NCBI RefSeq assembly: GCF_900167095.1
Contig: NZ_FUXG01000004.1
Span: 1 to 64,000, forward strand
Source of the DNA: Oceanospirillum multiglobuliferum
GTDB lineage: Bacteria; Pseudomonadota; Gammaproteobacteria; Pseudomonadales; Halomonadaceae
Reading direction: 5' to 3'
DNA: 64,000 nucleotides
The notes beneath the pieces were generated by a model, which was not told the DNA's origin, did not search any database, and saw nothing but the letters and a program-made list of their open reading frames with translations. Made by a program: the position numbers and the translations under genes. Below are positions 11,056 through 16,084 of this stretch, in pieces. The number at the start of each line of letters is the position of its first letter. Positions within the stretch are counted from its first letter, which is position 1.

Positions 11056-11799
11056 TTATTCATTTTCAGTGATTATTAGCGGCTGCCAGTGGTTATCCTG
11101 AAGCTGTTCAAGGGGTTGATATTGTGTTTTGTAGCTCATTTTTTTACAAGACTCGACCCAATAGCCCAAATACAGATAAGGAGAATCTATAGATCGACAG
11201 TAAACCAGTAGCCATAGTACGACATATACGCCTAGGGAACGACGGGAAAGATTAGGGTCGTAGAAAGTGTAGATGGCGGATAGCCCATGGCTCAACTCGT
11301 CCATGGCTGATACTGCAACTAATTGCCCAGAGGGTTCTCTAAACTCAACCAAATGGGTAAATTCACAATCAATATTTAAGAACGAACGGAATTGATCCTC
11401 TGACGGCGGATACATATCACCATCGGCGTGACGTTCATTGATATAACGCTCGTAGAGCGCATAATGTTCAGCGCTAAACTGAGCGGGTACAATACGCCAG
11501 CTTAAATCAGAGTTTCGGTGAGCGATTTTTCGATATTTTCTTTTGAAGATAAAATCATTCACCGGAATGCGCACGGAGATGCAAGCGTTACAGCCTTTAC
11601 AGTTAGGGCGGTAAAGATGGCTGCCGCTGCGCCGAAAACCGACAAGGCTGAGTAGATCGTACACAGATTGATTTAATGGGTGTTCAGGGTCTAAGAACAG
11701 GGTTGAGGCTTCTTTATCCGCCAAATAGCTACAAGGGTGTGGTACGGTCATATAAAAGCGTAACTGTGGTTCTGACCTAAATTGGGTATCACTGCTCAA
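11056..11799 (-). CDS. bpt: Aspartate/glutamate leucyltransferase Bpt (bacterial ATE-like)
   Basis: A 247-residue aminoacyl-tRNA-protein transferase. It adds Leu to proteins with N-terminal Asp or Glu, creating N-degrons that ClpS recognises. It has the ATE N-terminal Cys cluster (PCSYLADKEASTLF, then CKGCNACISVR) and the C-terminal GNAT-like part with HADGDMYPPSEDQF and LYLGYWVESCKKMSYK. Together with aat, clpS and clpA in this window it makes a complete N-degron branch. It lies 102 bp downstream of aat on the same strand. Confidence 0.94.
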   Translation of the reverse strand: MSSDTQFRSEPQLRFYMTVPHPCSYLADKEASTLFLDPEHPLNQSVYDLLSLVGFRRSGSHLYRPNCKGCNACISVRIPVNDFIFKRKYRKIAHRNSDLSWRIVPAQFSAEHYALYERYINERHADGDMYPPSEDQFRSFLNIDCEFTHLVEFREPSGQLVAVSAMDELSHGLSAIYTFYDPNLSRRSLGVYVVLWLLVYCRSIDSPYLYLGYWVESCKKMSYKTQYQPLEQLQDNHWQPLIITENE

Positions 11800-11901: not shown

Positions 11902-12645
11902 CTATTGGTGTGAGTCCAATCGTTCTAACACCGCTTCACTGGTTGCACATAGCTCGCCCTGCCAAGCATCCAGCGGTAAAACTGCTGCGCCATATAGTTT
12001 AAGATAGTCCATAAACTCCGTTCTACCTATCTCTGCGGCACCTAAGCTGGCAAGGTGATCGGTATACACTTGGCAGTCGATCAACTGGTAATCCCAGCGT
12101 TTTAAATGGGTAGCCAAATACACGAAGGCTGCTTTAGACGCATCTGAGACATGGCTGAACATCGACTCGCCACAGAATATTTTGCCAACAGATACGCCAT
12201 AGAGCCCTCCTACTAATTTGCCGTCGCACCAGGTCTCAATTGAGTGCGCATAGCCTTTTTGATGCAACTCGATATAGGCCGCTTTGATGTCATCGGTAAT
12301 CCAAGTGAGATGGGTATAGTTTCTAGCCCCTGCACATTGGTGCATCACCTGTTCAAACGCTTGGTCAACGGTAAAGCTAAAGTGTTGCTTACGTAATGTT
12401 TTTTTCAAACTGCGATGCACTTTGACCGCTTCAGGCTTTACTACCATGCGAGGGTCTGGCGACCACCATAAGATCGGCTCATCAGGGTTGAACCACGGGA
12501 AAATACCTGAACGATAAGCCACCTGTAACCAATGAGCATTAAGTTTTCCGCCAAAAGCCAGTAAGCCCGAGGGGTCTTTTAACGCATGAGCAGTGGGTGG
12601 AAACTCTGGCGGAAGGTCTGGGTCTAACCAGGGCAGTGTAATCAT
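11902..12645 (-). CDS. aat: Leucyl/phenylalanyl-tRNA-protein transferase
   Basis: A 247-residue cytoplasmic enzyme that attaches Leu or Phe from aminoacyl-tRNA to N-terminal Lys or Arg, making substrates for ClpS-ClpAP. Family signatures: GLLAFGGKL, YRSGIFPWFNPDEPILWWSPDPR, THLTWITDD, GLYGVSVGKIFCGESMFS and the C-terminal DCQVYTDHLASLGA. Length is typical (about 230-250). It is divergent from the ftsK-type gene 92 bp away. Confidence 0.97.
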   Translation of the reverse strand: MITLPWLDPDLPPEFPPTAHALKDPSGLLAFGGKLNAHWLQVAYRSGIFPWFNPDEPILWWSPDPRMVVKPEAVKVHRSLKKTLRKQHFSFTVDQAFEQVMHQCAGARNYTHLTWITDDIKAAYIELHQKGYAHSIETWCDGKLVGGLYGVSVGKIFCGESMFSHVSDASKAAFVYLATHLKRWDYQLIDCQVYTDHLASLGAAEIGRTEFMDYLKLYGAAVLPLDAWQGELCATSEAVLERLDSHQ

Positions 12646-12737: not shown

Positions 12738-14006
12738 ATGGCTACAAACCCAAAATTGTCACCAGAGCCTCAAGAGTTGGCGCAGGCTCAGATGCTGTCA
12801 AAAATACTACAAGACAGCCAGCAAGTTTTGTCATTTCTACTGGCATCTGCTGTGATGCTGGCACTGCTCAGTCACGACTTACAAGATGGCGGCTGGTCTA
12901 TAACCGCAGAAAATGCTACTCCTCAGAACTGGCTGGGTAGTATAGGTGTGTATCTTTCCGATCTACTGTTAAGCATCATGGGATATGCTGCTTACTGGTT
13001 GCCTATTGCCTTATATTACAAGGTGCTACGCTACTTAATGCAACATTATAATTTTGCACCAAACTTTGCACATTGCTTGAATGATTGCTTAAAACCACCT
13101 CATCAAGCTATCGCTTCATTTGCTTTTATCTTACTTTTGGTCGCAACCGCTTCATTGGCAGGGCTACATTTCTATCATCCTAACCATGGCCTCCCTCATG
13201 CTGTGGGTGGCATTGTGGGGGAAAGTCTTACTGTATTGTTATTGCATTCTGTCGGTGCTGTTGTTGCTACATTGTTTGTACTTGCACTTTGGCTTACGGG
13301 TTTAACCTTCAGTATTGGCATACCTTGGTTAAGGTTGATGGATGAAATAGGTTTTTATGCGGAAAAAAGTGTGCTTCATCTTTTTAGGTGGGGGCAAACT
13401 GAATCGCGAGAGTCTAGAGCAGGATTGCCAGAAAACTATGCTGTAGATGATCAACTTTCACCCTTTTCTCACTTCAAAGTTGAGGAGGATGAGGACGCTG
13501 ATAACCGTCGCCGTCCATATTCCAAACAGAAAAAGTCTTCACCTTCATCTGAGAATCTGTCGGCCAAAGAGTCGGAAAGTATCAGTGCAGATGAATATTT
13601 CGGGGCAGAGGCTTCTGAATCAGAGCGATCAAGCAGCCCTACGCAAGGTTTCTGGCAACAGTTATCTCCTCTGTTTAAAGGCACTTCGTCCTCTGATAGA
13701 AATACTCGTTTTGAGCGTGTGGAACCGGATTTTAGCTTAGATGAGAGCCTCACCTTTGATGCCTCCACTTTTGCAGAGCCTAAACTGTCTGAAATAACGC
13801 CAAAAGCAGAACCATTATCAAGCGTAATACTCGAAGAAAATAATGATGATAGGCCATCTTCTAACGGTGCAGAAACAATAGAAATGCCTGACCCTACGCA
13901 AAGTACAAAGCAAGCTGAAGACAGCTTGCAGCAAGCACTCACACAACTGATTCAACAACAAGCACCACGGTCTGAAGCTGAAGATAGAAATAAACATTCA
14001 AAGTAA
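12738..14006 (+). CDS. ftsK: FtsK N-terminal membrane domain and linker only; motor domain missing
   Basis: A 422-residue protein matching only the first part of DNA translocase FtsK. Four membrane segments are visible (about 29-46, 70-93, 124-146, 163-195), with family motifs NWLGSIGVYLSDLLLSIMGY and the WLTGLTF...PWLRLMDEIG exit of helix 4. An acidic Ser/Glu/Gln-rich linker (about 210-422) follows, then a TAA stop. The RecA-like motor with Walker A/B and the gamma DNA-reading domain, normally another ~450-500 residues, are absent. Only 22 bp separate the stop from lolA, so a simple frameshift cannot explain the loss. The membrane domain is the part essential for septum assembly in E. coli; chromosome pumping would need a motor encoded elsewhere. 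ATG 12738 is chosen over TTG 12681 because the shorter form begins like the family and AAGGG lies upstream. Confidence 0.85.
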   Translation: MATNPKLSPEPQELAQAQMLSKILQDSQQVLSFLLASAVMLALLSHDLQDGGWSITAENATPQNWLGSIGVYLSDLLLSIMGYAAYWLPIALYYKVLRYLMQHYNFAPNFAHCLNDCLKPPHQAIASFAFILLLVATASLAGLHFYHPNHGLPHAVGGIVGESLTVLLLHSVGAVVATLFVLALWLTGLTFSIGIPWLRLMDEIGFYAEKSVLHLFRWGQTESRESRAGLPENYAVDDQLSPFSHFKVEEDEDADNRRRPYSKQKKSSPSSENLSAKESESISADEYFGAEASESERSSSPTQGFWQQLSPLFKGTSSSDRNTRFERVEPDFSLDESLTFDASTFAEPKLSEITPKAEPLSSVILEENNDDRPSSNGAETIEMPDPTQSTKQAEDSLQQALTQLIQQQAPRSEAEDRNKHSK

Positions 14007-14028
14007 AAAGCTGAATATAGGATTTTTT

Positions 14029-14685
14029 GTGATTAGCACTCTGTATAGCAAGTTAGCGGTATTATTTATTGGCCTTTTTTTACTGCAATCTCCGGCAGTT
14101 GCAGAGGTGAATGCCAGCGCTCAACTGAACCAACTGTTAACTGAGATGAACTCGCTAGACGCTGACTTTCAGCAACGTATTTTAGATGCACGAGGCAGCA
14201 GATTACAGGAAGTCTCAGGGCATTTAACACTAAAACGGCCAGGACGATTTTATTGGCAAACGAAAGCGCCTTACTCTCAAACTATCGTTTCAGATGGTGA
14301 GACGTTATGGCTATACGACCCAGACTTAGAGCAAGTCACCGTACAAACCCTTGACGACAACCTGTCTAGAACCCCTGCGATGTTATTGAGTGGTGACATT
14401 GACTCTTTAGATCAGCGTTTTCAGGTTGCTCTGGTTCGCTCAACTACAGCCGCGAAAGGTATCGCAGCAATACAAGAGTTTGTTCTCAAGCCGAAAGAGC
14501 AAGATTCACTATTTGAAGAGCTGCAACTTAGCTTTTACGACCACAAGTTAGCGGCTTTACTCTTGGTTGACAGCTTGGGTCAACGTACCTCCATAGAGCT
14601 ATTTGATGCTCGGTTTAATACTCAAACCGATGAAACCCTTTTCAACTTTAAAGTACCAGATGACGTAGATGTTGTGCTGCAATAA
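14029..14685 (+). CDS. lolA: Outer-membrane lipoprotein carrier protein LolA
   Basis: A 218-residue periplasmic chaperone that carries lipoproteins from LolCDE to LolB. The signal peptide covers about the first 25 residues (LAVLFIGLFLLQSPAVAE). The mature part shows the LolA pattern: DADFQQ near the start, GHLTLKRPGRFYWQT, SDGETLWLYDPDLEQVTV, and a C-terminal VPDDVDVV. Translation starts at GTG 14029, preceded by AGGA. It keeps its usual place between ftsK and rarA. Confidence 0.94.
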   Translation: MISTLYSKLAVLFIGLFLLQSPAVAEVNASAQLNQLLTEMNSLDADFQQRILDARGSRLQEVSGHLTLKRPGRFYWQTKAPYSQTIVSDGETLWLYDPDLEQVTVQTLDDNLSRTPAMLLSGDIDSLDQRFQVALVRSTTAAKGIAAIQEFVLKPKEQDSLFEELQLSFYDHKLAALLLVDSLGQRTSIELFDARFNTQTDETLFNFKVPDDVDVVLQ

Positions 14686-14731: not shown

Positions 14732-16084
14732 ATGGATCTTTTTTCGCAAACGCTTGAAACGAGTCATCAACCCTTAGCGGCAAGAATGCGTCCCAAGACA
14801 TTAGATGAGTATTGTGGTCAGCAGCATCTATTGTCCAAAGATGGCTCTTTGCGTAAAGCGATTGAGAGAGATCAGCTGCACTCTATGATTCTTTGGGGGC
14901 CGCCTGGCGTAGGTAAAACCTCTTTAGCCAAATTAATTGCTGAGCTAACACAAGCCCGCTTTGAGGTGATTTCAGCAGTTTTAGCAGGTGTGAAAGAGAT
15001 CAGAGCCGCTGTTGAGCGTGCCCAGCAAAGTCGAGTACAAGGGCAGCGTACTCTGCTATTTGTAGATGAAGTCCACCGTTTTAATAAGTCGCAACAAGAT
15101 GCCTTTTTACCCTACGTTGAAGATGGCACTTTTGTTTTTATCGGTGCGACCACCGAAAACCCCTCTTTTGAGCTCAATAATGCCTTGTTGTCTCGCGCAA
15201 GAGTTTATCTGCTTAAACCTTTGTCTACAGAGGTCTTAGTGACTGTTTTAAAACATGCACTACAAGATGTTGAGCGAGGCTTAGGTGAGCAGGCGCTCCA
15301 CGTTGAAGGCAATAGCTTGCAACTATTAGCACAAGCAGCTGATGGGGATGCTCGCCGAGCATTAAATCTTTTAGAAATTGCAGCAGACTTGGCTGTAGAT
15401 ACCGCTCAAGGTCGAATGATTACCCTTGCTAGTTTGCAAGAGGTATTAAGTGAAAGTACCCGCAGAATGGATAAAGGTGGCGATCTGTTTTATGAGCAGA
15501 TATCAGCTTTACACAAGTCTGTTCGAGGCTCATCGCCTGATGCTGCGCTGTATTGGTTTTGTCGGATGCTAGATGGTGGATGTGATCCGCTTTACATTGC
15601 TCGTCGAGTGGTGCGAATGGCAAGTGAAGAGATTGGCAATGCTGATCCTAGAGCTTTGCAGCTCAGTCTAAATGCATGGGATGTACAGGAACGATTAGGG
15701 AGCCCTGAGGGAGAGTTAGCCATTGCTCAGGCTATTGTTTATATCGCTTGTGCGCCGAAAAGTAATGCGGTTTATACCGCATATAAGCAGGCTCGCGCCC
15801 ATGTGCAAGCCACAAGTCATTATGATGTGCCAGAGCATTTACGCAATGCGCCTACCGCATTGATGCGTGAGATGGGATTTGGTCAGGCTTATCGCTATGC
15901 CCACGACGAGCCAGATGCCTATGCGGCGGGAGAGTGTTACTTTCCAGAGGCTCTTGCCGATACGACTTATTATCAACCTGTACCAAGAGGGCTAGAACAA
16001 AAAATAGCGCAGAAGCTGAACTGGTTAGCTGAACAAGACCGTAATAGCCCCTCCAAAAGATACGATATAGATCAACAGAGTTAA
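14732..16084 (+). CDS. rarA: Replication-associated recombination protein A (RarA/MgsA AAA+ ATPase)
   Basis: A 450-residue AAA+ ATPase of the clamp-loader group that acts at stalled forks. The N-terminus is [15 protein letters not shown]; Walker A is GPPGVGKTS, Walker [26 protein letters not shown], sensor 1 GATTENPSF, and the tetramerisation region includes [16 protein letters not shown]. The C-terminal part has the usual [13 protein letters not shown]...YFPE segment. Length matches E. coli RarA (447). GAAGGACG precedes the ATG. It follows lolA by 46 bp, probably in one operon. Confidence 0.96.

Follow-up and report, generated by a model that had tools for sequence, protein, structure and literature searches.

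The window analysed here, a 64,000-nucleotide stretch of the Oceanospirillum multiglobuliferum genome, contains an ftsK open reading frame on its forward strand that starts with an ATG codon at position 12,738, ends with a TAA codon at position 14,006 and encodes a protein of 422 residues. The predicted product comprises an FtsK membrane domain, encoded by positions 12,801–13,352 (+ strand) and matching the Pfam FtsK_4TM family (PF13491, E-value 1.1e-34), followed by a cytoplasmic linker (13,353–14,003, + strand) that ends where the full-length FtsK proteins of relatives run on into the motor. The other Pfam listing for this protein holds PepSY_TM alone, at an E-value of 0.15 and below the cut-off of that family. 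Comparison of the protein sequences by eye identified a linker motif, ERVEP (13,713–13,727, + strand), that is common to the window FtsK and to the full-length FtsK of O. linum, O. sanctuarii and O. sediminis and reads ERIEP in O. maris. These data bear out an earlier sequence-only reading of the gene as a membrane domain and linker followed by a stop; the gene end that it had placed at 14,030 overlaps the start codon of lolA and is revised to 14,006.

A gap of 22 bp (14,007–14,028), as previously claimed, separates ftsK from lolA (14,029–14,685, + strand), which starts with GTG at 14,029, and rarA follows at 14,732–16,084 (+ strand). On the other side of ftsK lies an aat-type gene on the reverse strand (11,902–12,645, − strand). 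All three neighbours are intact and occur in each of the six Oceanospirillum genomes compared, and the ftsK–lolA–rarA order is kept. At the position of the gap, relatives carry about 1.5 kb of DNA coding for the motor and gamma domain, the motor part of O. beijerinckii FtsK amounting to 528 residues. The names lolA, rarA and aat, as well as rplS, dsbC, DUF484 and HAD used below, are presumptive, being those of the sequence-only reading or, as for aat, assumed from the sequence; the genes were followed by genome-to-genome comparison, not by assignment to a family library.

In the assembly, a 207-kb contig encloses the locus. When the FtsK proteins of relatives (two full-length and one motor part) were compared with the ftsK–lolA DNA of the window using tblastn, motor matches were at chance level only and no motor remnant was seen within ftsK itself. 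This outcome upholds the view that no motor-like coding DNA remains downstream and disfavours a frameshift.

The FtsK motor and gamma domain across genomes

Profile searches for the FtsK motor (PF01580) and the FtsK_gamma domain (PF09397) matched nothing in the O. multiglobuliferum genome (3.51 Mb in 46 contigs, 98.75% complete), and were positive in E. coli and in four other Oceanospirillum genomes, which served as controls. Both domains are thus missing genome-wide, as the sequence-only reading had proposed for the locus, and there is no motor elsewhere in this assembly. The six genomes that we compared are those of O. multiglobuliferum, O. linum, O. beijerinckii, O. sediminis, O. maris and O. 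sanctuarii, and the motor is missing from two of them, O. multiglobuliferum and O. maris (hereafter the motorless species). The O. maris ftsK gene, inside a 336-kb contig, likewise encodes the 4TM domain and linker and is followed by lolA, and profile searches of that genome detected neither motor nor gamma domain. FtsK is full-length and encoded in a single frame in O. linum, O. sediminis and O. sanctuarii. An apparent split of FtsK in O. beijerinckii was rejected and attributed to an assembly break, since the two pieces, separated within the linker, both stop at contig ends (C38 and C5).

A short in-frame piece at the C-terminus of O. maris FtsK matches the final part of the motor that precedes the gamma domain (41% identity over 37 residues, E-value 7e-4 in a small tblastn search), which is consistent with the scar of an internal deletion. 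In O. maris, the 4TM part shows 67–68% identity to those of the sister species, with a pN/pS of 0.25–0.30 (68% and 0.25 against O. sanctuarii, synonymous sites being saturated), and the 4TM part of O. multiglobuliferum is 36–40% identical to the others with a pN/pS of 0.53–0.60, again with saturated synonymous sites.

In a survey of 391 genomes of the order that are at least 95% complete, in which seven candidates per genome were scored and which did not sample O. maris, the motor was present in 387. The four motorless genomes are those of O. multiglobuliferum, G047, G118 and G231. G047 has XerC and XerD and lacks FtsK altogether, which is probably a gap because its congener G079 has both FtsK domains. 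G118 and G231, which belong to one genus, lack the motor, the 4TM domain, XerC and XerD. A smaller survey found the motor in 35 of 38 genomes, the exceptions being O. multiglobuliferum, O. maris and G035 (81% complete).

A tree of nine concatenated proteins (2894 columns, two outgroups) groups O. maris with O. linum and O. sanctuarii with a support of 100/100, and an AU test rejected a sister relationship of O. multiglobuliferum and O. maris (log-likelihood 124 lower, p-AU 2e-36). Because the two species are rejected as sisters, the motor was likely lost independently in each, that is, twice; all nine proteins are encoded in the ftsK neighbourhood, so this tree is strictly the history of the ftsK locus.

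Loss of XerC, XerD and dif, and retention of recombination functions

Using the XerD model TIGR02225, we detected XerD (336–369 bits, above the model cut-off) and XerC (278–289 bits) in four of the six Oceanospirillum genomes and neither of them in O. multiglobuliferum or O. maris, where the best matches reached 86.9 and 127.7 bits, respectively. The pair devoid of XerC and XerD is therefore exactly the motorless pair. A pattern search for dif, using a 28-bp pattern and allowing up to three mismatches, returned one copy in each of the same four genomes and none in the motorless species; a backward control pattern gave no match. The rplS and dsbC genes, which flank xerD in relatives, adjoin each other in both motorless species, and the DUF484 and HAD genes, which flank xerC in relatives, adjoin each other in O. 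maris, the HAD gene of O. multiglobuliferum having been relocated to another contig. None of the five junction stretches that we examined yielded a xer fossil. The two species have thus very likely co-lost the FtsK motor, the gamma domain, XerC, XerD and dif.

These findings bear on the two possibilities raised from the sequence alone. A split translocase with its motor encoded elsewhere is disfavoured, as the motor is nowhere in two genomes and the one apparent split is a contig break, and resolution of chromosome dimers without an attached motor is strongly favoured, XerC, XerD and dif being gone as well.

Both motorless species retain RecA, RecB, RecC, RuvB and RuvC (the first 330 residues served as queries for RecA, RecB and RecC), which led us to reject lost homologous recombination as the reason for the loss of the system. 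Since these proteins are retained, chromosome dimers should still form in both species. An E. coli MatP query had no match in any of the six genomes and is uninformative.

We counted 57 copies of the KOPS octamer GGGNAGGG, where 27 are expected (ratio 2.1), in 528 kb near dif of O. sanctuarii, O. linum and O. beijerinckii, which makes it narrowly the commonest octamer there (57, 55, 49). The 333 kb that surround the 28-bp site (described below) in O. maris and O. multiglobuliferum contain 15 copies, where 14 are expected (ratio 1.05, rank 16 of 42). Expected counts come from 41 control octamers of identical composition, O. sediminis lying outside the count, and the contrast in enrichment is significant by Fisher's test (p = 0.021), albeit with small counts. 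The terminus enrichment present in three dif-bearing genomes is therefore absent from both motorless species, which fits relaxed selection after motor loss. KOPS orientation also differs, with 49 copies directed toward dif and 8 away from it in the dif-bearing set, as compared to 8 toward and 7 away from the 28-bp site in the motorless species (p = 0.011). We attribute this polarity contrast mostly to general strand bias and draw on the enrichment only, because control octamers are almost as polar in dif-bearing genomes (0.75–0.85 toward dif, against 0.83–0.90 for KOPS); strand bias is weak in O. multiglobuliferum.

A tyrosine recombinase, a KfrA-like gene and a 28-bp palindrome

All six Oceanospirillum genomes encode, beside conserved genes, a Xer-like tyrosine recombinase of about 400–440 residues, whose copies in the other genomes are 64–69% identical to that of O. 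multiglobuliferum. The six XerD catalytic residues R-K-H-R-H-Y are all present in each of 15 aligned recombinases (six from Oceanospirillum, those of G231 and G118, and seven from plasmids). The closest solved relatives by sequence are XerD, the Xer-like archaeal entry 4a8e, and XerH. The recombinase gene and a KfrA-like gene are divergently oriented. In the KfrA-like gene, the KfrA_N domain was confirmed for O. multiglobuliferum and O. sanctuarii, the two tested, and homologues of this gene occupy the same position in the other four genomes.

Between the two genes, all six genomes carry a 28-bp dif-like palindrome with an 11-6-11 layout, ATTCAYGGTTA-6-TTACCGTGAAW, with conserved arms and a variable 6-bp centre (TTAGAG, TTAAAG, TAGCCG or TATCCG). 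The two arms mismatch at one of 11 positions in O. linum, O. maris and O. sanctuarii, at two in O. beijerinckii and O. sediminis and at three in O. multiglobuliferum. The site was found at one place per genome, counted within the loci examined. It lies 6.8 kb from dif in O. linum, 10.5 kb in O. sanctuarii, 19.8 kb in O. beijerinckii and 38 kb in O. sediminis. In the stretches read, dif itself is 24 kb (O. sanctuarii), 2 kb (O. linum) and 16 kb (O. beijerinckii) from the GC-skew maximum. In O. maris, cumulative GC skew forms a high plateau that includes the site, and its maximum at 1-kb steps is 15.7 kb away; the site of O. multiglobuliferum, in which GC skew is weak, is 14.6 kb from the maximum. 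We consider the palindrome a candidate crossover site.

Outside the genus, the sole XerD-model match of G118 and of G231 is a recombinase 25–26% identical to the Oceanospirillum candidate, too distant for an ortholog call from its sequence, and the surrounding stretches examined hold no 11-6-11 palindrome with fewer than two mismatches. No convincing ortholog of the module was found among the regions of XerD-model matches that were read (four of 10 in G008, two of 15 in G027 and one of five in G047, all being neither XerC nor XerD), the best of them being on contig C8 of G008 (28% identity over 224 residues, E-value 4e-7).

The site recurs in phage DNA. One phage contig (L178) carries 28 of its 28 bases, and two contigs that represent one phage with the same DNA at this place (L177 and L179) carry 27 of 28; the centre in both phages is TTAGAG, as in O. 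linum and O. sanctuarii. No credible recombinase match was found in the phage DNA compared, which covered 7 kb of one 78-kb contig (best E-value 0.009, over 14–57 residues). A BLAST search with a 38-base version of the site returned weak phage matches only (E-value 6 for the 20 listed of 26) and no plasmid match. A relaxed pattern picked out three more viral contigs, which we did not use as evidence: contigs of 543 kb and 19 kb share the same genes and have the site inside an open reading frame, and one of 21 kb has it between open reading frames with a different centre.

Plasmids often carry recombinases of this group, which matches 2130 of 72,556 plasmid records (tblastn, E-value 1e-5) and 1636 of them over at least 80% of the query, a count that takes in distant relatives since all matches are below 60% identity. 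At seven plasmid loci that we retrieved, the recombinase is 37–46% identical to that of Oceanospirillum. A divergent KfrA_N gene was confirmed at three of the seven, where the recombinase is 37–43% identical to the O. multiglobuliferum and O. maris copies. An upstream 11-6-11 palindrome with at most one mismatch is present at three of the seven loci, those of Halioglobus (perfect), Comamonas and Variovorax, a result that 0 to 1.3% of shuffled sequences reached, depending on the locus. The C. malaysiensis and C. basilensis loci have palindromes with two mismatches only, and the Paraburkholderia and Polaromonas loci have no 11-6-11 palindrome. The arms of the plasmid sites differ in sequence from those of Oceanospirillum.

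Possible routes to a motorless FtsK and comparison with known systems

FtsK joins two jobs, building of the divisome and pumping of DNA to XerCD at dif, and division in E. coli requires its membrane part. Our data suggest that the motor and gamma domain were deleted from ftsK separately in O. multiglobuliferum and O. maris, that XerC, XerD and dif were also lost in both, and that the 4TM domain and linker were kept, most likely for building the divisome. Dimers would most likely be resolved by the resident module of all six genomes, probably near the terminus and of a type known from large plasmids, with its Xer-like recombinase acting at the 28-bp palindrome beside its own gene and next to the divergent gene for a KfrA-like DNA-binding protein. 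With such a second resolution system in place, the FtsK motor, XerCD and dif would have become dispensable and could then be lost repeatedly. We assign a probability of roughly 0.57 to the reading that FtsK was reduced to its division role and that the resident single-recombinase module made the motor, XerCD and dif dispensable. As regards its parts, a takeover by the KfrA/Xer module is slightly favoured; the recombinase would cut the 28-bp site and resolve dimers with no need for a translocase, and the FtsK remnant would work in division. The fuller statement, in which this module resolves dimers without any translocase and thereby twice let FtsK shrink to a divisome protein, is tentative, at a little below even odds. 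Several observations count against these proposals. The 28-bp site sits within a divergent promoter region, where it may act as an operator, and its arms mismatch at three of 11 positions in O. multiglobuliferum. GC skew is weak in that species, and the skew maximum is 14.6 kb away from the site there and 15.7 kb away in O. maris. Of the seven plasmid loci, four have no 11-6-11 palindrome with fewer than two mismatches, and XerS, a known single recombinase, depends on FtsK. Both motorless genomes, moreover, are draft assemblies.

That no replacement exists and unresolved dimers are tolerated, through slow growth, few crossovers or the loss of some cells, is unlikely in our view. Larger-genome free-living proteobacteria without dif/Xer have been reported by Carnoy and Roten (PMC2731167), and PMC9765430 describes dif and xer mutants as viable in other species. 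The KfrA/recombinase module would then serve another role, for instance as a plasmid remnant, an account that overlaps with the operator function considered next. However, RecA, RecB, RecC, RuvB and RuvC are kept, the recombinase is conserved at 64–69% identity with its six catalytic residues intact in both motorless species, and it lies near dif in the relatives that have dif. We likewise doubt that the palindrome acts as an operator, whether for the KfrA-like regulator or for the recombinase, instead of a crossover site: its location in a divergent intergenic region in all six genomes would suit an operator, but a separate conserved element lies near the kfrA start, the arms are conserved around a variable 6-bp centre, two phages carry the site with the TTAGAG centre and no credible recombinase match in the DNA compared, and the 11-6-11 layout recurs with other arms at three of the seven plasmid loci.

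The job could fall to a further resolvase that escaped recognition, be it a mobile integrase, a diverged Xer protein or a serine recombinase, and O. maris does have further XerD-model matches (six in all); we hold this to be quite improbable, as the XerD-model matches of O. multiglobuliferum are the candidate recombinase, one phage-type integrase and nothing else. A linear chromosome with hairpin ends would form no dimers, and the need for a resolution system would presumably vanish, but no protelomerase (PF16684) scored above cut-off in the six genomes, a weak match in O. multiglobuliferum being antisense to or outside open reading frames of annotated size, and we regard this possibility as extremely improbable. 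The two motorless genomes are draft assemblies of 46 and about 40 contigs, which might favour a motor hidden elsewhere or lost by the assemblers; yet the ftsK–lolA junction lies inside long contigs in two assemblies, the motor, gamma domain, XerC, XerD and dif are all missing from the same two genomes, and the excision sites are closed, which leaves this explanation a very slim chance.

If FtsK was indeed reduced to its division role, its two jobs seem to have been naturally separated in both species, probably twice, with the division part kept. The retained 4TM domain, for which a role in division is predicted, fits the natural separation of the division and DNA-pumping roles envisaged in the sequence-only reading. 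The solo role of the FtsK membrane part, and chromosome monomerisation without a septal DNA pump, could accordingly be tested in cultured bacteria. Should the KfrA/Xer module be the resolver, it would be a new chromosomal system with a single recombinase and plasmid ancestry, and would point to what this recombinase group, so common on plasmids, plausibly does. In a literature search that took in few subscription papers, no title or abstract described (i) a natural motorless FtsK or (ii) the plasmid KfrA/recombinase pair as a resolution system, and nothing connected Oceanospirillum with FtsK or a tyrosine recombinase.

E. coli FtsK likewise has a 4TM domain and linker, and its gene is followed by lolA and rarA in the same order, but the window FtsK lacks the RecA-like motor and the gamma domain that the E. 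coli protein possesses. It thereby resembles the N-terminal-only FtsK constructs made in the laboratory, here as a natural protein. The KfrA/tyrosine recombinase pairs of large plasmids (megaplasmids) share with the Oceanospirillum module a related recombinase and, at three of seven loci each, a divergent KfrA_N gene and an 11-6-11 palindrome with no more than one mismatch, whereas the Oceanospirillum module is chromosomal and probably near the terminus.

Replacement of dif has been asked about before, 12.2% of the proteobacterial species studied having no dif motif according to Carnoy and Roten (PMC2731167). As described in PMC9765430, the XerL/dif system of the Legionellales is also based on a single diverged Xer protein in gammaproteobacteria without XerCD, and its site is mimicked by a mobile element, such as LME-1 of Legionella, which the phage copies of the 28-bp site recall. 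In contrast, the Legionellales keep an FtsK homologue (lpg1766) and have the XerL site more than 400 kb from the gene, whereas the Oceanospirillum site is beside its gene. XerS/difSL and XerH/difH similarly rely on a lone tyrosine recombinase whose gene lies close to a dif-like site (PMC9765430), and XerH is among the nearest solved structures of the candidate recombinase by sequence. The Oceanospirillum module differs from both in its KfrA-like partner, its site sequence and the missing FtsK motor. XerS depends on FtsK (PMC3025954), so that motor-free working of a single recombinase would be unusual. Judged by analogy, XerS is the closest functional analogue of the putative Oceanospirillum system.

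Genomes of the same order lacking FtsK parts

In G231 and G118, genomes from a different genus of the same order, the FtsK motor and the four-helix membrane domain are missing together with XerC and XerD. Their sole match to the XerD model is one recombinase (L165:2320-3438 and L166:98-1267), which is 25-26% identical to the Oceanospirillum recombinase. XerC and XerD are present in a third genome, G047, in which neither the motor nor the membrane domain was found; this genome is 96% complete, and the missing FtsK probably reflects an assembly gap. Relatives carry a HAD gene after xerC; in the window's genome this gene has moved to a different contig (L171:6230-6943), close to a rearranged stretch.

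Phage copies of the 28-bp site

The Oceanospirillum 28-bp site recurs in phage contigs at L178:438-465 (28/28 bases), L177:2495-2522 and L179:5338-5365 (27/28 bases each), the latter two contigs belonging to one phage. No credible recombinase match was detected in the phage DNA examined, and these copies may mimic a host site.

KfrA-associated elements and plasmid counterparts

A second conserved element, of the TACGTAATACATAATACGTA type, lies near the kfrA-like gene start (L062, about 11150-11200) and at the matching place in L056, L057, L061 and L063. Compared by eye, it resembles TACGTAATAC...ATTACGTA of the Cupriavidus malaysiensis plasmid and is perhaps the KfrA operator. On large plasmids, recombinases related to the Oceanospirillum one adjoin a confirmed KfrA_N gene (L203, L206 and L207) or an unassigned ORF (L208), with an 11-6-11 palindrome separating recombinase and neighbour in L207 and L208. 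The plasmid pair and its palindrome form a candidate multimer-resolution module.
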